DNA from: Candidatus Omnitrophota bacterium
GTDB lineage: Bacteria; Omnitrophota; Gorgyraeia; Aquiviventales; Aquiviventaceae
Length of the DNA stretch: 40,653 nucleotides
Assembly (NCBI GenBank): GCA_016180575.1
Contig: JACPAY010000017.1
Span: 1 to 40,653 of the forward strand
Direction: 5' to 3'
In this document: piece after piece, positions 5,269-35,869 of the stretch
Layout of the letters: the number at the start of each line of letters is the position of its first letter
Position numbering within the stretch: the stretch's first letter is position 1
Notes under the pieces: model-generated
Database searches by the model: none
What the model was told of the DNA's origin: nothing
The model's input: the letters and a program-made list of their open reading frames with translations, nothing else
Made by a program: the position numbers and the translations under genes

Positions 5269-6006
5269 TCATGGGTTTGCAAACGCGAACGCCACCGTCT
5301 GCGATTCGCCGCCTTGCACCGTCACCGTCGCCCGCTGGGTGCCAAGCGCGCTGTGCCACGCCTCCAGGGTGTACGTCCCCGGCGGGAGGCCGGAGAGGGA
5401 GAAGGCGCCGTCCTCGCCGGTCACGGCGAAGAACGGGTGCGCCAGCACATGCAGGTAGGCGGTCATCCAGAAATGGACATCGCACTTGAGCGGGACGCCG
5501 ATCTCCGGCTTCTTCAGCACCTTGGTCGTCTTCATGCCCTGCACCGGCTGCGCGATGTTGAACGACTGGCCGAGCTTCGACTGGGCGCGGACGTTGTGCA
5601 GGACCGGGTCGTCGTTCCGCACCTCGATCGGCTGGCCGGCCATGACCGCCCCCACGTGCGGCGCAAAGACGCAGCCGCGCTGCTCGAAGACGAGCGGCTC
5701 GGCCGGAGCGGCGAACTCCCCCGGCACCGCGTCCGTCACGTAGATGAGGACGTCGCGCACCGTCCCGTTGGGATTGACCACGAGGTCTTCTTTGAGAGGC
5801 GGGTGGTCGCCGTGGGCGATCGCGCACTGCTTCTCCGCCCCGAATTCGATCGGCTGGACCGCGGGCGGCGTCCCCATGAACGCCACCGTGCCGGTCACCG
5901 TGCCGCCCCCACCCGTATCAGATACCGAGTCCGCTTTGGTATCTGATACCAAGGTGGCGGCTGCGGCAAGGACCACCGCCCACCCGATCACTTGATGATG
6001 TCGCAT
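5269..6006 (-). CDS. Exported cupredoxin-like protein with carboxypeptidase-regulatory-like domain
   Basis: 245 residues from ATG 6006, chosen because GGAGGAGGGG lies just upstream; the ORF-track start at 6285 overlaps nosL. A signal peptide (MRHHQVIGWAVVLAAAATL) directs export. The middle resembles a cupredoxin: NDDPVLHNVRA and KCDVHFWMTAYLHV place His, Cys, His and Met as type-1 copper ligands. The C-terminus, DGAFSLSGLPPGTYTLEAWH, is a carboxypeptidase-regulatory-like beta domain common behind such cupredoxins. It lies 22 nt after nosL in the nos operon, so a periplasmic electron carrier or copper protein serving NosZ is plausible; no nos c-type cytochrome is present here. Oddity: a palindrome at 5915-5949 is translated in frame as VSDTKADSVSDT, right after the hydrophobic core of the signal peptide. 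Confidence 0.75.
   Translation of the reverse strand: MRHHQVIGWAVVLAAAATLVSDTKADSVSDTGGGGTVTGTVAFMGTPPAVQPIEFGAEKQCAIAHGDHPPLKEDLVVNPNGTVRDVLIYVTDAVPGEFAAPAEPLVFEQRGCVFAPHVGAVMAGQPIEVRNDDPVLHNVRAQSKLGQSFNIAQPVQGMKTTKVLKKPEIGVPLKCDVHFWMTAYLHVLAHPFFAVTGEDGAFSLSGLPPGTYTLEAWHSALGTQRATVTVQGGESQTVAFAFANP
5915..5949. repeat. Palindromic element inserted in frame in cupredoxin-like gene
   Basis: Inverted repeat with arms GTATCAGATACC and GGTATCTGATAC around a short spacer. It is a diverged copy of the perfect palindrome at 25634-25674. It is read in frame as VSDT-KADS-VSDT between the signal peptide and the mature domain, so the host gene stays open. Confidence 0.85.
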
Positions 6007-25589: not shown

Positions 25590-25624
25590 AAAAAAACCGA
25601 GCTGCCATTCGTTCGGCAGCCCGG
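25590..25624 (-). terminator. Riboswitch-linked intrinsic terminator
   Basis: Minus strand: CCGGGCTGCC, 8-nt loop, GGCAGCTCGG, then seven T. The 5' arm is the 3' end of the c-di-GMP-I aptamer (CCGGGCTGCCG), so ligand-stabilised aptamer and terminator exclude each other. This predicts an ON switch. Confidence 0.85.
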
Positions 25625-25726
25625 CTATCCTCTCCGGTATCAGATACCAAGCCCCGCTTGGTATCTGATACCGGAAAGCACCCGTGGCTTTGCGTCCCCC
25701 GCTTACGCGGGGTTTGCCCTTCTCGG
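25614..25726 (-). promoter_or_regulatory. c-di-GMP-I (GEMM-I) riboswitch 1
   Basis: Minus strand: GGGCAAACC, a stem capped by GTAA (GNRA loop), then GGGACGCAAAGCCACGGG, a variable arm, and CCGGGCTGCCG. These are the conserved GEMM-I blocks; the middle G of GGGC (G20 in Vc2 numbering, as I recall it) is kept, which favours c-di-GMP over cGAMP. The variable arm is extended by the palindrome at 25634-25674. Confidence 0.92.
25634..25674. repeat. Perfect 18-bp-arm palindrome in riboswitch arm
   Basis: Arms CCGGTATCAGATACCAAG and CTTGGTATCTGATACCGG around a 5-nt loop. It forms the tip of the variable arm of riboswitch 1. A diverged copy lies in frame in the cupredoxin-like gene at 5915-5949. Confidence 0.9.
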
Positions 25727-25734
25727 TAAATCGA

Positions 25735-29038: not shown

Positions 29039-32000
29039 TCACCACAGCTCCGGCAGCGGCTGGCGCACCTTGCGCCCCGCCGGGTCTTCGACCACGAGCG
29101 TCAGCGTGTAGCTGTGGTAGCGGGTGTCCACGCGGAAGGCGACCTGGTGGGTCGTCCCCAGGGGGGTCTTCGGGCTTTGGCGGATCTCCCCGATGACCGC
29201 GTGCTCCACCCAGCCGATGGCAGGCGTCGAGGTCGTCCAGCGGACCTGGAGCTCCGGCCACCCGTCGAGCCGGATGAGGTCCGTCCGGAGGTTGTGGACC
29301 TGGGGCGGCCCCGCAGGGATGGGGAGAACCGGTGGCGCTGGCAGGGGCGGGGCCACTGGCGCCGGCGGCGGGGGCGCCAGCGTGGTCACCGTCACCGCGC
29401 TCGACAGCGCGGAGACGTTGCCCGCCGCATCCTGGGCGCGGACGAGGTAGGTGTAGGCGGTGTCAGGGGCGAGGCCCGTGTCGTGGTAGGTCAGGCCGGA
29501 GACCGTGGCCAGGGAATCCCCGTTGCGCAAGACGGTGTACCCGACGACACCGGTATCGTCGCTGGCGGCTGCCCATACCAGCTCCACCGCCGTGAGCGCC
29601 GCCGTTCCGCGGAGCGCACCTGGCGGCGTGGGCGGGGTCGTGTCTGGCGTGCCGGTCACGAACGTGAGCCCCTCCTGGGTCGCGCGGTTGCCCGCGGTAT
29701 CGGCCGAGCTGAGGCGCACGTAGTAGCGGGTCGCGGGGGTCAGGCCCGTGAGCTGGAGGTGGTGCTCGATGACACGCGTCCCGTCCTGCGCCTGGTGCGT
29801 GAACGTCCCGGGCTCAAGGCTGTAGTCGGCCCGGCTGTCGGCGGGCTCATCGGTCCGCCAGGTCAGGGTCGCGGCCTCCGTCGTCACCGCGGTGATCGCC
29901 GCATCAAAGAGGCGCGGTGGCTGCCGGTCAATGGGCGCTTGCGTGGTAAAGGTCACCTCGTTGGACCACGCGCCCCAGAGGCCGCGATCATCACGCGCGC
30001 GCACCTGGGCGAAGTAGGCGGTCTGGGGCGAGAGGTCCGAGAGCGGCAGGGTCTCCGGCTGGCCGCTGGCCTTCAGGCCGGTCAGGCGCTCCACGAGGCG
30101 CACGAAGGGGGCCGCCGCGCCCTCCAGGCGTTGCTGGCTCAGCTGGACTTCGTAAGCGACGACGGTGCCGGAGACGCCGTCATCCCCAGGTGCGGTCCAC
30201 GCCAGCGCCGCCGTCAGATCGCTCACATCGCTGGCCCCCAAGTCGCCCACCGCCCCAGGGGGTTCCACATCCTGGACACCCAACGTCACCACCGTCAGAT
30301 CGGGGAAGCGCCGCTCTGTGCCGGTGGCCTCCTGCGTCGTTACCTGGAAGGTGTAGAGGCTGCCCGCGGTCAAGGGGGCCATGGCGAGCGTGTGGGTGCG
30401 GGCCAGGGTCGTGTCCTCCACGAGCTGACCGTAGGCGGTGGTGTAGCCGTAGGCGACGCGCACCCGGGTGGGCTGTTCGGTCGTCACGCGCAGCGTGGCG
30501 CTGGCCTCCGTCACCGCCGTCAGCTCAAGCCCGGGCTCCGTCGGGGGCGTCGGGTCGTCGGGGAGCACGGTCACCGTCACAGCATCGGTCCCGCTCAAGC
30601 TGCCATCGTGCACCGTCAGCGTGAAGCGGAAGTCCGTCGTTGCCTGGACCACCGGCGGTGTGAAGCTGGCGGTGGCGCTCGTGGCGCCCAGCAGCGTGAC
30701 GGCGGGGCCCGCCGTCTGCTGCCACTGGTACGTCAGGGGATCGCCATCCGGATCGGTCGAGCCGCGGCCATCGAGCGAGACGGTCCCGCCGCTCGTCACC
30801 CGGTCCGGCCCGGCGTCCGCGACGGGGGGGCGGTTGACGGTGCAGCCCTGGGACTCCGCGGGCTTCCCGGTCGGATCGCCGCAGCTATTGGCATCGGTGC
30901 AGGTTCGTGTCTGGATGCCATCGACACAGGCCCCCCAGGCGGTGCAGCTCCAGCTCGGCGTGCACGGCGGCGGAGCGCCGTTATCCACCATCACCGTGAT
31001 CGGCGAAGACGTGGCGCGGTTCCCTGCCGCATCCCTGGCAATGGCCGTCAGCACATGCGAGCCATTCGCAGCGCCGGTCGTATCCCAGGCCAATGCATAG
31101 GGGGCACCGGGATCTTCGGCCCCCAGCGCGGTCCCATCCAGCTGGAATCTGACCCCGATGACGCCGATGTTGTCCGACGCGTCAGCGGCCAGCGTCACCG
31201 CGGACCCGGACACGGTCGCATCAGGCGCCGGGGCCGTAAGCGCCACGGTCGGCGGAACGGGATCGCCGGCCCCTGGCGCGACAACGAGATGGCACCTGGC
31301 GGTCGAATGGCCATCCGCGACGAGAATGGGGAAGGTGCCTGGGGCGCTGGCCTGGAAGGAAAAGGCGTGGCCGATCCCGCTGCTGACCACCCCCCCGCTT
31401 GGTCCGACAGCTTTCCAGGCATGATAGGTCGCCCCGCCCGTGGAGGTGAAGACGGCTTCCGCATCCACCTCGACGGTGGCCGTGAGCGGGTTGCACGCCA
31501 GAGGGGGGAGATTGGGGTTCACCACTTTGACGAGATCAGAGGGCTTGGAGTCGCCCTGGCTGTTCGTCACATCCAGCCGGAAGAGGGACACGCCGGGAGG
31601 AACCGCCAGGGCAGCCTGGCCATCCGGCCAATCGGTTGTCCCGCTGGGCGCGGCGACGGTCTCGATGAGCTGCCACTCGCAGTTGAACGTGCTGCCGTCC
31701 TCTCGGCACCCAAACGGATGGTAGACGCTTCGGTAGACCTTCGCGGCGGAGAGCGTGGCGCCTGCCGCCGTGGTGGCGTGAAAGGTCGCCGTCGCCGGCC
31801 CGTCGGTCACCGCGGGGCTTACCGCGAACGCCATGATGTGCGGTTCGGCGCTGACCCGAGGCGAGCCGGCCGGCCCCGGGGTGGGGGAGGGCAGCAGCGG
31901 ATAGGCCGCCAGGCCGGCGGCGGCTCGGTTGCTGAAGTACGTGTTGTCCACTTCTCCGCTCACCTGCGCCCCCACGGCATCGGCGTCCAAGAACGTCGTC

Positions 32001-35000
32001 ATGTTGACCAGCGTGTTGCCTTGGACGGTGATGGGGATGTCCACCTGGGGACTCTTGGTGTAGAGGAGGACACTGCCCGGCCGGTCAAAGACCATGATGT
32101 TGTCTTTGATCACGATCTGATGGTTGCCGGGGATGGCGTCTGGGTGCGACGTGCCGTAAATGCCGTTAAAGGGCTCATCCGCCACCGTGATCATCCAACG
32201 ATTGAGGGCCCCCGGCCCCTGTTCGAGGACGTTGCCTTGAATCGTCGCCTCGCCGCCCAGCTGGACATTGATGACCTTGCTCGCGCTTCCCCCGAGGTGC
32301 GCGATGACGTTGTTGAGGATCTCGCATTTCTTCGCCCCGCACTTGACCCCATGGCCGCCCGTCACGTGATAGACGACGTTGTTTCGGAAAATGGCATGCG
32401 GGGTGCGCTTGGCGATGTACACGTTATGCGAGGTCCCGTCTTGCCCGTTCCGCTCAAAGCGAGAGTTCTCGATGAGGATCGTGCCCGTTGGGGCGCCCTC
32501 TTCGCCGCCAAGGTAGGCCGTCTGGTTATCGTGGAAGTAGACGTTGCGAATCGTCAGGCTGGCGGCCTCGTTCCTCACACAGGCCCCGTTGCCAGAGCCC
32601 GACGAGATGCCGGAGCACTCCAGGCCCTCAATCGTCACGTCCTCTGATTGCACCACGAGCGCTCCCTTCCCTGAGCACGCTGTCTCTCTCAGGTGAGCGC
32701 CAGGCTCCCCCACGATGGAAATCCCCTTTTTGCCTCGCGGGATGACGGCGCACTGGCGATAGACGCCCCCCCTCACGAGCACCGTATCGCCCGGCGCAGC
32801 CGCGTCAACCGCCTTCTGGATCGTGCCAAATGGGGTCGAGCCTCTCCCATCCCCCGTGCCGTCGAGAGCGACGTAGAGGATTCGATGCGGAGGCGTCGCC
32901 GGCTGGACGGTCACCGTGAGGTCATCGCTGGCTGACAAGGCTCCGTCATGGGCCGTCAGGCGGAGGACATAGCTCCCCTCGACGGAGAAGGTCGCGGTCG
33001 TCGCCGGGGCTGCCGGGTCCTCGAGGGCCGCTGTCCCGGGCCCGCTGACCTGCGACCAGGCGACCGTCAGGCTCTGTCCTGTCGGCAAGCCATCGTCGCT
33101 GACGGTCCCTTCGAGCGTGGCGGCGGCGGGGAGGGTGAGCGCCTGGTCCGAGCCGGCCCGGGCGACCGGCGCCTGGTTCGCAGGAGGAGTTGGGGTCGGC
33201 GCGGGCGAAGAGCCGGCGGGCGTGAAGACGATCGTGGCGCTGAAGAAGGTGGAGTCGCAGCCGTACTCAGCGCGCTTGTTGATGACGAAGTCCACCGCCT
33301 GCTGCGCGGCCACCGCCGCCGTCACGTCGTAGCTGGCGCCCGTGGCATCGCCGTTGGCGATGACGCGCTCCCACCGCGTGGCGCCGCCCGTCCGGATCGA
33401 CACCAGGACGCCATCCCCACAATCGGGATTGAGGTCATACGCCCGGCCGGTCACCCGGATGCTGCCGGCGCTTGGCGCGGTCCAGCGCCTAATCACATCG
33501 CTCACGTTTCCTGGATGCCCCCCATCGGCCCACAGCAATTGGTAGGGCTCCGGACCCTTCCACTGCCCATTTGCGGGGTCGTAGGTCAAGGGGCCAGCCG
33601 GCGCGAGGTAGGACCAGCCGTTCGCTCCTTGCGTCCCGGCGAAATCCACGGACGCCGAAGCGGTCGTTGCGCCAGCGGGAGGGAATGATGGAGCATCGCC
33701 AGGTGTCGGCGAGGGGGTGGGGGTAAAGACTGGGGCGGGAGGCGGAGAGCAGTTCGGAGCGCCGCCTGGCATGGTGACCGTAGCTTCCTTCGAGCTGGTT
33801 CCATACGCATTGCTGGCCGTTAGAACATACGTGGTGGTGCCGCATGGTTTCAGCAACAGCGTGCCAGCGTGTTCTACGGCTCCAACCGGGCTTAAGGTGA
33901 CGGAGGTGGCAGACGGATCTGCATACCAGGTCACATAAGCCGTATCAACTGTGCCATTGCCATTCCCTGTCGGGATATCCGGCAAACTTCTTGGATAGAC
34001 ATTCAACACAGTTTCCGGCGGGCTGGTTCGGGGAACAGGCGGTGGTGCAATGTTGTCGCCTACTTCATAGACATGGATCAAGCTCCGAGCGCTGTCTCCA
34101 GTAATTCCAACTGAAACATATAATCGGCTGGTCACGGGGTCAAACGCCGCGCCGTTGACGTTTTGGGATTGCATTTGACCCGGGTCCCCAAACGTCCAGG
34201 CCCCGTTAACTGTTGACGCTCCCGGACCGATGGACACATAGCCCAAATTCGGATATGAAACAGGCCAGGTTTGCGCCGGCTGGGGATCGGTGATGGCTTT
34301 CTGCCCTTGGGCCACCGCCGCTAAATCCGAAGGGGCATATTCCCACCACCAGTGCGTGACTAGCTGCACCGCTGTAGCGCCGTTATAATAAAAGCTGCGG
34401 CCTTTCTTTAAACTTGGGAAGTAAAACAGGCCGCTCTTCGTCGGGGTGTCAATCCAAACCGCTGTGCCGGGGTTTTCTCTTACCCAATAACCAATGCCAT
34501 TCCGGGGATTCCAGCCCTCCCAATCAGACCAGTAATCAGTATCGCGATGAGGCGGTTCAGGGACTGAATACGCCGTGGCGTCATTAGCAAACGGGTACCC
34601 AAGAATCGTTTTAAAATTCAACGAAGATTGTGGCGGGTTGGAAGTGACATCGGGCGGCACAAATGCGGTCAGGGTTGGTCCATCGCTGTTAAAATGCACC
34701 GTTCCGGATTCCACCCCGCCGCAGCCGGCTCCCAGCCGTTTGCCGCCCAGGTACGCAGAAGCGAACCAGGCAGGAATGGCGGTGGTGCATTGCCCTGTGA
34801 AACCGGGTCCTACCCCTGAAAATTTCCACGGACCGTAAGAACTGATAGTGCCCGCACTGTCATTGATGGTGCTATATCCGATGGTAGGATTAGCAGCACC
34901 ACAGCCGGTGTTGTAGATATCGACGTAGTTCCAATACAATCGTTTGTCTACATCGTCCCAATGCATCCCCCGAAAATAGATGCTGTTGGGGTTGCCGCAA

Positions 35001-35371
35001 GTAATCGTTTTGCCGCCACCGAAATGACCCCAATCCTTCACAAAGGTGCCGGAGGGATATGGCGCCGTCATAGATGGGGTTGGAATACTATATTCGTAAA
35101 GACTCCACGGGTAGATCGAAATAAAACCGCGCAGCTGCCCATTGACTCGGCGCAGAGCAAAACCTGCCGAGTAGTAATCATTGCCGATGAGGGGCGGCAG
35201 GAAGGATCCAATATATTTGAAATCCTTCTGGGTTAAAATTGCTTTCTGGTCAGCGGCTGTGGCCAACGAGGGGCGGGTAACGTGCACAAGGCTCAAGGGT
35301 AGCGCAAGGAGGGTGGCGCAGGCGAGTCGTCCTGCGGTCGACCGACGAATTCCTGAAAGCGGATTCCGCAT
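29039..35371 (-). CDS. Giant secreted multidomain protein under tandem c-di-GMP riboswitches
   Basis: About 2,110 residues from ATG 35371, which has GAGGG upstream; the ORF-track ATG at 35383 has no ribosome site. A signal peptide comes first. Residues ~45-455 are an unfamiliar Trp/Tyr-rich beta domain, followed by an Ig-like domain and a Pro-rich linker. Then come a possible carbohydrate-binding beta domain (~590-730), a PKD/REJ-like domain (APVARAGSDQALTL) and a parallel beta-helix (~840-1170, starting FGTIQKAVDAAAPGDTVLV). More Ig/PKD domains follow, with a Cys-rich thrombospondin-like module (SWSCTAWGACVDGIQTRTC), a second PKD domain and about five fibronectin III domains. No LPxTG, autotransporter or PEP-CTERM anchor is visible. 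Probably an adhesin, matrix or polysaccharide-binding protein. The first third is less GC-rich than the rest. Confidence 0.85.
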   Translation of the reverse strand: MRNPLSGIRRSTAGRLACATLLALPLSLVHVTRPSLATAADQKAILTQKDFKYIGSFLPPLIGNDYYSAGFALRRVNGQLRGFISIYPWSLYEYSIPTPSMTAPYPSGTFVKDWGHFGGGKTITCGNPNSIYFRGMHWDDVDKRLYWNYVDIYNTGCGAANPTIGYSTINDSAGTISSYGPWKFSGVGPGFTGQCTTAIPAWFASAYLGGKRLGAGCGGVESGTVHFNSDGPTLTAFVPPDVTSNPPQSSLNFKTILGYPFANDATAYSVPEPPHRDTDYWSDWEGWNPRNGIGYWVRENPGTAVWIDTPTKSGLFYFPSLKKGRSFYYNGATAVQLVTHWWWEYAPSDLAAVAQGQKAITDPQPAQTWPVSYPNLGYVSIGPGASTVNGAWTFGDPGQMQSQNVNGAAFDPVTSRLYVSVGITGDSARSLIHVYEVGDNIAPPPVPRTSPPETVLNVYPRSLPDIPTGNGNGTVDTAYVTWYADPSATSVTLSPVGAVEHAGTLLLKPCGTTTYVLTASNAYGTSSKEATVTMPGGAPNCSPPPAPVFTPTPSPTPGDAPSFPPAGATTASASVDFAGTQGANGWSYLAPAGPLTYDPANGQWKGPEPYQLLWADGGHPGNVSDVIRRWTAPSAGSIRVTGRAYDLNPDCGDGVLVSIRTGGATRWERVIANGDATGASYDVTAAVAAQQAVDFVINKRAEYGCDSTFFSATIVFTPAGSSPAPTPTPPANQAPVARAGSDQALTLPAAATLEGTVSDDGLPTGQSLTVAWSQVSGPGTAALEDPAAPATTATFSVEGSYVLRLTAHDGALSASDDLTVTVQPATPPHRILYVALDGTGDGRGSTPFGTIQKAVDAAAPGDTVLVRGGVYRQCAVIPRGKKGISIVGEPGAHLRETACSGKGALVVQSEDVTIEGLECSGISSGSGNGACVRNEAASLTIRNVYFHDNQTAYLGGEEGAPTGTILIENSRFERNGQDGTSHNVYIAKRTPHAIFRNNVVYHVTGGHGVKCGAKKCEILNNVIAHLGGSASKVINVQLGGEATIQGNVLEQGPGALNRWMITVADEPFNGIYGTSHPDAIPGNHQIVIKDNIMVFDRPGSVLLYTKSPQVDIPITVQGNTLVNMTTFLDADAVGAQVSGEVDNTYFSNRAAAGLAAYPLLPSPTPGPAGSPRVSAEPHIMAFAVSPAVTDGPATATFHATTAAGATLSAAKVYRSVYHPFGCREDGSTFNCEWQLIETVAAPSGTTDWPDGQAALAVPPGVSLFRLDVTNSQGDSKPSDLVKVVNPNLPPLACNPLTATVEVDAEAVFTSTGGATYHAWKAVGPSGGVVSSGIGHAFSFQASAPGTFPILVADGHSTARCHLVVAPGAGDPVPPTVALTAPAPDATVSGSAVTLAADASDNIGVIGVRFQLDGTALGAEDPGAPYALAWDTTGAANGSHVLTAIARDAAGNRATSSPITVMVDNGAPPPCTPSWSCTAWGACVDGIQTRTCTDANSCGDPTGKPAESQGCTVNRPPVADAGPDRVTSGGTVSLDGRGSTDPDGDPLTYQWQQTAGPAVTLLGATSATASFTPPVVQATTDFRFTLTVHDGSLSGTDAVTVTVLPDDPTPPTEPGLELTAVTEASATLRVTTEQPTRVRVAYGYTTAYGQLVEDTTLARTHTLAMAPLTAGSLYTFQVTTQEATGTERRFPDLTVVTLGVQDVEPPGAVGDLGASDVSDLTAALAWTAPGDDGVSGTVVAYEVQLSQQRLEGAAAPFVRLVERLTGLKASGQPETLPLSDLSPQTAYFAQVRARDDRGLWGAWSNEVTFTTQAPIDRQPPRLFDAAITAVTTEAATLTWRTDEPADSRADYSLEPGTFTHQAQDGTRVIEHHLQLTGLTPATRYYVRLSSADTAGNRATQEGLTFVTGTPDTTPPTPPGALRGTAALTAVELVWAAASDDTGVVGYTVLRNGDSLATVSGLTYHDTGLAPDTAYTYLVRAQDAAGNVSALSSAVTVTTLAPPPPAPVAPPLPAPPVLPIPAGPPQVHNLRTDLIRLDGWPELQVRWTTSTPAIGWVEHAVIGEIRQSPKTPLGTTHQVAFRVDTRYHSYTLTLVVEDPAGRKVRQPLPELW

Positions 35372-35392
35372 CTGTTCCCTCATTTTCGGAAT

Positions 35393-35424
35393 AAAAAAGC
35401 CGGACTACCCTTCGGTAGCCCGGC
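35393..35424 (-). terminator. Terminator of riboswitch 2
   Basis: Minus strand: GCCGGGCTACC, 4-nt loop, GGTAGTCCGGC, then six T. Its 5' arm is the aptamer 3' block CCGGGCTACCG, again predicting ligand-dependent antitermination. Confidence 0.88.
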
Positions 35425-35525
35425 TGTCCTTGTCAGGCCTGCTGATGGCGGCACGCTCAACCGCCATCCAGACTGAGAGGACCCGTGGCTTTGCGTCCCC
35501 AGCTCACGCTGGGTTTGCCATTTTC
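35413..35525 (-). promoter_or_regulatory. c-di-GMP-I riboswitch 2 (proximal)
   Basis: Minus strand: GGCAAACC, stem with GTGA loop, GGGGACGCAAAGCCACGGG, an arm closed by GTCCT/AGGAC with an inner GATGGCGG/CCGCCATC hairpin, then CCGGGCTACCG. Lies 42 nt before the giant gene start. Confidence 0.92.
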
Positions 35526-35573
35526 GCTATTAATACTAACTTTAAAAGAACAAATGAAGTTGCCAATAAAAAA

Positions 35574-35617
35574 AGCCGGAGACAAAAATACCGGGTGCCC
35601 TTTTCGGCAACCCGGCT
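35574..35617 (-). terminator. Terminator of riboswitch 3
   Basis: Minus strand: AGCCGGGTTGCC pairs imperfectly with GGGCACCCGG followed by TATTTTT. A longer alternative pairs AGCCGG with CCGGCT, directly followed by seven T. Either uses the aptamer 3' block. Confidence 0.7.
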
Positions 35618-35706
35618 TTCCTTCGGACTGCTGATAGCCCTCAGCTAACCAGCCCTGAAGGATCCGCGGCTTTGCGCCCCTGCCTTACGACAGGTTTACC
35701 TTTTCG
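35605..35706 (-). promoter_or_regulatory. c-di-GMP-I riboswitch 3 (distal of tandem pair)
   Basis: Minus strand: GGTAAACC, stem with GTAA loop, GGGGCGCAAAGCCGCGG, an arm closed by ATCCTTC/GAAGGA, then CCGGGTTGCCG. It departs from consensus at two places (GGTAAACC for GGCAAACC; GGGCGC for GGACGC), so affinity may differ from riboswitch 2. A 40-nt AT-rich linker separates the pair. Confidence 0.85.
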
Positions 35707-35717
35707 TTCCTGCAACA

Positions 35718-35746
35718 AGTAAACCTGATCCAGCGCAATTTGTCAA
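35718..35746 (-). promoter_or_regulatory. Promoter of tandem riboswitch transcript
   Basis: Minus strand: TTGACA (35741-35746), 17-nt spacer, TTTACT (35718-35723), placing the start a few nt before riboswitch 3. The region from 35707 to 35869 is AT-rich and otherwise holds only a weak hairpin after sucD (GAAGCG/CGCTTC at 35846-35871). Confidence 0.65.
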
Positions 35747-35869
35747 ATATTTTTCACATACAGTATAATTTACATAATTCAATATACTACAATAAGTTAC
35801 AAATATAAATATGGTGACATATACGATAAAATAACGCACAAAGAGGAAGCGCTACCCTGTTTGGCCGCT

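Follow-up and report, generated by a model that had tools for sequence, protein, structure and literature searches.

Tandem c-di-GMP-I riboswitches upstream of a giant secreted protein gene in an uncultured bacterium: a predicted pair of ON switches in series

Introduction

What does a gene gain from two riboswitches of the same class placed one behind the other, and do both of them act on it? The question is raised by a window of 40,653 nt (the whole stretch of DNA analysed here, on which all coordinates are counted), in which two GEMM-I aptamers precede the gene of a giant secreted protein. Such a layout has been described for hundreds of bacterial genes besides this one. In a survey of 2022, c-di-GMP-I riboswitches led all classes with 347 doublets and 12 triplets, and the design was filed as pseudo-cooperative (PMC9481103); a survey of 2025 reports a significant enrichment of tandem c-di-GMP riboswitches, in which it expects neither aptamer to be dispensable (PMC12452182). 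Here we report the aptamers, terminators and promoter of this locus, weigh the ways in which the pair could operate, and describe palindromic repeats that lie within related aptamers.

Two complete aptamers in series

The window was searched with Infernal against Rfam 15, where the gathering scores are 35 bits for RF01051 and 59 bits for RF03167. Three GEMM-I matches exceed the gathering score, namely the tandem pair and a single aptamer at 25727-25611 (Table 1). Both tandem copies lie well within RF01051 (58.9 and 68.6 bits), and the original prediction, which had described two complete GEMM-I aptamers in series and had called for this very search, is borne out; the location of the pair on the minus strand and the third aptamer go beyond it. 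Both aptamers and the giant gene point in the same direction, in the order promoter, copy 1, its terminator with an AT-rich spacer of about 40 nt, copy 2 and giant gene. Chance is no explanation for two complete aptamers that lie within 200 nt on the same strand ahead of a gene and that each have a terminator.

Table 1 Features of the tandem locus and of the third riboswitch
Feature	Position	Strand	Details
Promoter	35718..35746	(-)	TTGACA (35746-35741), 17-nt spacer, TTTACT (35723-35718); motif ATCAGGTTTACTT (35729-35717)
Copy 1, promoter-proximal c-di-GMP-I aptamer	35603..35710	(-)	RF01051 58.9 bits, E 3.7e-9
Terminator 1a of copy 1	35582..35616	(-)	GCCGGGUUGCC...GGCACCCGGU + AUUUUUGU; 5' arm = aptamer 3' block
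Outer terminator 1b of copy 1	35568..35619	(-)	AAAGCCGG / CCGGCUUU + U-tract
Copy 2, gene-proximal c-di-GMP-I aptamer	35410..35528	(-)	RF03167 70.6 bits, E 7e-15; RF01051 68.6 bits
Terminator 2 of copy 2	35393..35425	(-)	AGCCGGGCUACC-GAAG-GGUAGUCCGGCU + U-tract; 12-bp stem
Giant secreted protein gene	29039..35371	(-)	ORF 29039-35383; signal peptide, PKD, beta-helix, Big_7, fibronectin III
Third, single c-di-GMP-I aptamer, outside the tandem	25611..25727	(-)	RF03167 68.6 bits; REP-like inverted pair = P3 tip

The ligand-contact bases G20, A47 and C92 are present in both copies, where positions 20, 47 and 92 follow the Vc2 numbering of the GEMM-I family. G20 and C92 have been named as conserved ligand-binding residues (PMC9049102). 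With all three bases in place, c-di-GMP and not cGAMP is the predicted ligand of both copies. A20, the mark of the cGAMP type, occurs in two of the 75 aptamers that were compared (from this genome, its family and one class-level relative) and is absent from both tandem copies. The one circumstance that could speak for cGAMP sensing by one or both copies, or for membership of the c-di-GMP-I-GGC variant, is that RF03167 is the best Rfam match of copy 2; copy 1, at 56.6 bits, stays below the gathering score of that model. A cGAMP-type GEMM-I was nevertheless rejected because position 20 is G and not A in both copies, and the variant because both carry CGCAAAGC where the RF03167 consensus reads GACGCGAAGC. 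In the alignments, the A47 of copy 2 and of the third copy stands opposite a G of this consensus; the distinguishing base of the variant is thus absent, the RF03167 label of copy 2 is one of score only, and we hold either alternative to be very improbable.

Two departures from the consensus had been ascribed to the distal aptamer. Two do exist, but they reside in the promoter-proximal copy 1, as C22 to U and GAC to GGC. Relatives often have the GGC core (29 of the 69 cores that could be read), whereas U22, by which a G-U wobble replaces a G-C pair, was found in one of the 75 aptamers, copy 1 alone; by these counts U22 appears to be the only noteworthy deviation of the two.

Terminators that share the aptamer 3' block

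Both copies overlap a terminator hairpin whose 5' arm is the aptamer 3' block, just as the original prediction had it, and copy 1 has an alternative hairpin besides. Terminator 1a has an energy of -18.5 to -19.5 kcal/mol; the outer terminator 1b, if its formation is imposed, reaches -17.1 kcal/mol (1a has -19.5 in that comparison) and has the longer U-tract. The two share one 5' arm and are mutually exclusive. Terminator 2 draws its whole 5' arm from the 3' block of the copy 2 aptamer and folds with -23.7 kcal/mol. When the downstream DNA of copy 2 was replaced by dinucleotide shuffles, none of 1000 folded as well with the aptamer 3' block; for copy 1, 30 of 1000 (3%) were as good as the real terminator, a share explained by the high GC content of the sequence downstream.

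When transcripts of copies 1, 2 and 3 were folded at increasing lengths, the aptamer prevailed up to about 113-125 nt and the terminator thereafter; in copy 1, the change to terminator 1a came at about 119-125 nt. The terminator arm includes C92, as in the pilM ON switch, and we infer ON logic for both copies from this arrangement. A strict terminator finder placed terminators overlapping the aptamer in 28 of the 75 GEMM-I aptamers, so that the ON-terminator design is common, as seen in this part of the 75 only. Each copy has a separate terminator and the pair has no shared expression platform of the kind expected of a cooperative dual aptamer (glycine type); the two are complete riboswitches with an expression platform each, which is the hallmark of the pseudo-cooperative tandem.

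The two units are not equally strong on paper. Copy 1 might accordingly be seen as a decaying or low-affinity relic that serves as a fixed partial attenuator and leaves regulation to copy 2 alone, and its lower RF01051 score (58.9 against 68.6 bits), its unique U22 and its weaker terminator all lean that way. Yet its ligand-contact bases are intact, it retains both switch arms and it is the copy next to the promoter, and a relic is in our judgement unlikely.

A single promoter motif ahead of the pair

Whether the two riboswitches form a series depends on where transcription starts. A promoter-like motif, ATCAGG(T/C)ATACTT, is strongly conserved ahead of GEMM-I aptamers across the family (61 of 65 leaders). 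A promoter matrix was built from the seed ATCAGGTATACTT and refined on 65 other GEMM-I leaders of this genome and its relatives, with the three copies of the window and the tandem loci left out of the training; scores of more than 6 bits were obtained for 61 of the 65 training leaders. Upstream of copy 1 the motif scores 17.25 bits, a value reached by none of 1000 shuffles, while between the copies, ahead of copy 2, it scores 0.57 bits against a shuffle mean of 1.9. The doublets L064 and L065 of relatives likewise have the motif ahead of the first copy only, and the same matrix gave no significant match at either copy of a further doublet, L063.

As the motif is found before copy 1 and is absent between the copies, a single promoter probably serves both, in agreement with the promoter arrangement first proposed, here judged by the motif only; a start between the two copies is unlikely. 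Were each riboswitch to have its own promoter, copy 2 would be transcribed without passage through copy 1 and there would be no series gate. The sequence TTGGCA-16-TAAAGT between the copies, with 9 of 12 consensus bases, would offer a generic promoter of this sort, but the family motif falls below the shuffle mean at this place; an inner promoter was rejected as the main reading on the strength of the lineage motif despite the generic match, and we regard it as quite improbable. On the opposite strand, a sigma-70-like promoter (TTGTCA-18-TATAAT, 11/12) lies at 35740-35769 (+), where it overlaps the riboswitch promoter and runs antisense to the 3' end of sucD.

The downstream gene

The gene behind the pair had been described as encoding a secreted protein of about 2,110 residues. 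The open reading frame does extend to 29039, and translation from the ATG at 35371, which is supported by a Shine-Dalgarno sequence (GAGGGA ahead of it), gives about 2,110 aa with a signal peptide; the first ATG of the frame is at 35383. The ATG at 35371 comes 39 nt past the copy 2 aptamer. The protein includes PKD, right-handed beta-helix, Big_7 and fibronectin III domains, which make a role at the cell surface or in the extracellular matrix likely. None of the other 26 family genomes encodes a relative of the N-terminal 444 residues, the N-terminal domain found no match in the PDB, and a single-sequence AlphaFold model of this domain has a pLDDT of 34.5. Searches of genomes with the giant protein returned matches only in its common repeat and beta-helix domains, and searches of viral contigs returned none.

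A probable pair of ON switches in series

Taking these observations together, we consider it highly probable that the locus is a same-ligand (pseudo-cooperative) tandem of transcriptional c-di-GMP-I ON switches. Counted against this reading are the weaker terminator and the unique U22 of copy 1, the generic promoter match between the copies and the absence of the pair from the sister species. C-di-GMP signalling is present in the genome, as indicated by four GGDEF matches, three of them bearing a GGEEF, GGDEF or GGDDF motif, along with 11 PilZ matches.

The RNA would begin near the first base of copy 1, from one promoter. If c-di-GMP is bound during synthesis, the aptamer 3' block (C92 and the 3' strand of P3) would be held in place and terminator 1 blocked; without the ligand, the 3' block of copy 1 would pair with the downstream sequence and transcription would end. 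A polymerase that reads through would next reach the second, independent unit, which would follow the same logic right before the ribosome-binding site. With both copies acting in vivo as two serial ON units, the amount of full-length mRNA would approximate the product of two read-through probabilities, and the outcome would be a low leak together with a modestly steeper rise with c-di-GMP.

How much such a gate could achieve was estimated with an ideal model of two switches in series, from which the response figures of this section derive. With equal affinities the 10-90% range shrinks from about 80-fold to about 40-fold, equivalent to an effective Hill coefficient of 1.19, and the ON/OFF ratio is raised to its square; at 10% leak, for instance, it climbs from about 10 to about 98. 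A 10-fold gap in affinity lets the steepness drop toward that of a single switch. The steeper response foreseen in the original prediction thus holds to a slight extent (effective Hill of about 1.2), the main gain being a multiplicative reduction of the leak; in the model, then, series logic would mainly cut leak and steepen little.

The two-threshold gate that had been envisaged in the same place emerges in the model, as a broad or two-phase curve, only where an affinity gap of about 10-100-fold is combined with leaky terminators; with tight terminators the weaker aptamer sets a single threshold. A locus with clearly different affinities and leaky terminators, and hence a two-threshold response, could be argued for from the U22 of copy 1, from its differences in P2 and P3 and from the broad two-phase curve obtained with a 10-100-fold gap and 30% leak. 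One of the copy 1 deviations is common in relatives, though, and tight terminators restore a single threshold, which leaves this response improbable beside the same-ligand tandem with mainly reduced leak.

Occurrence in the genome and its relatives

The genome (1.31 Mb in 28 contigs, 84.6% complete) holds 12 GEMM-I aptamers, and relatives of 0.7-2.2 Mb have up to 25 copies. Among 26 genomes (this one, its family and one of the same order) three doublets score above threshold, the pair of the window and those on contigs C14 of G013 and C34 of G021; another is found in G033, of the same class. No doublet was found in the sister species G001, whose genome is 73% complete, and the draft of the sister genome gave no match to sucD. 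Copies 1 and 2 are 78% identical, and several other copies in the genome are about as close to them as they are to each other. The copies of the G021 doublet, by contrast, are 99% identical. A recent duplication of copies 1 and 2 is therefore unsupported.

Genes that follow GEMM-I aptamers in the family, assigned mostly by eye from translations, encode signal-peptide, pilin-like and PilX-like proteins and response regulators. The doublet of G013 precedes a signal-peptide protein with Ig-like sequence, also recognised by eye. In this doublet (L063:909-1314; G013 C14:19908-20313) the first aptamer has G20 (c-di-GMP type) and the second A20 (cGAMP type), and the tandem ahead of this secreted Ig-like protein could possibly be a two-ligand gate.

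The third riboswitch and palindromic repeats at P3

The third riboswitch, with a terminator at 25625-25589 (-21.6 kcal/mol), precedes the gene of a 225-aa secreted protein without family match (25564-24887, minus strand). A similar protein follows a GEMM-I aptamer in the relative G016 (L120), and the pairing of the two seems conserved.

The P3 tip of this aptamer is formed by an inverted pair of a REP-like palindrome, GGTATC(A/T)GATACC. Of this palindrome the genome has 67 copies, most of them arranged in inverted pairs, against 0 of the reversed control pattern; in the window it occurs at 25636-25672, within the third aptamer, and at 5938-5950. A perfect palindrome pair constitutes the P3 tip in four of the 12 GEMM-I aptamers, including this one, and an imperfect pair in a fifth; two further aptamers share a different repeat of about 37 nt. 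Eight palindromes lie inside aptamers where 0.06 would be expected under a uniform distribution, and on the assumptions that a tenth of the genome is available and that there are about 33 pairs, four pairs in aptamers have a P of about 3e-4. A P3-tip insert of 78 nt in G013 is 75/78 identical, in opposite orientation, between the second aptamer of L063 and L074, as might be expected of a palindromic element that moves or recombines at P3, and tips that resemble repeats, seen in several genera, suggest that mobile palindromes have inserted there repeatedly. The genome itself has one Y1 (REP-type) transposase gene, and Y1 (IS200/REP-type) transposase ORFs lie about 270-300 nt downstream of GEMM-I aptamers in G007 (L087:669-1982) and G005 (L101:668-1915).

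Neither tandem copy carries a recognised repeat: a genome search with the P3 tips of copies 1 and 2 returned only other GEMM-I cores and short matches at chance level, and their reading as repeat insertions was rejected. For the family as a whole we advance, tentatively and with some doubt, the proposal that the GEMM-I P3 tip may be a preferred landing site, in either orientation, for palindromic mobile repeats (REP- or MITE-like) that lengthen P3 and leave the core untouched, and that may have helped to copy, spread and diversify the riboswitches. A literature search of partial coverage returned no description of palindromic repeats at GEMM-I P3 tips.

Discussion

The pair in the window is explained by known biology. 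It shares with the tandem c-di-GMP-I riboswitches of the 2022 survey (PMC9481103) two complete units of one class, each with its own platform, ahead of one gene, and there is no essential difference beyond its setting in an uncultured lineage and before a giant secreted protein. Also close is the triplet of B. thuringiensis, likewise made of c-di-GMP-I ON switches in series, with terminators that recruit the 3' part of each aptamer; its induction of 1.2-, 1.8- and 3.4-fold with one, two and three units illustrates how stringency grows (PMC4759541). That triplet controls genes of cell-surface proteins, akin to the probable surface-type target here; it has three units and was tested with reporters, while the present locus has two and is predicted only.

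Single riboswitches offer further parallels. The terminator and aptamer of pilM in Geobacter metallireducens are mutually exclusive and form an ON switch, the terminator taking the aptamer 3' strand with the ligand-pairing C as it does here (PMC9262584); pilM is single and binds cGAMP, whereas the copies of the window have the c-di-GMP base G20. Bc1 of Bacillus thuringiensis has two rho-independent terminators behind one GEMM-I aptamer (PMC11218506), as predicted for copy 1; in copy 1, a common 5' arm allows only one of the two to form at a time, and Bc1 has an additional effect on translation.

The locus is a well-resolved case of predicted c-di-GMP gating in series, in an uncultured lineage that makes heavy use of GEMM-I, and it would place a giant secreted protein under double control. 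Of wider interest are the mobile-looking palindromes at P3, a testable route by which a riboswitch may change its shape without loss of function; if the proposed landing-site role is true, such repeats may have fed the many GEMM-I copies per genome, the source of tandems like this one.
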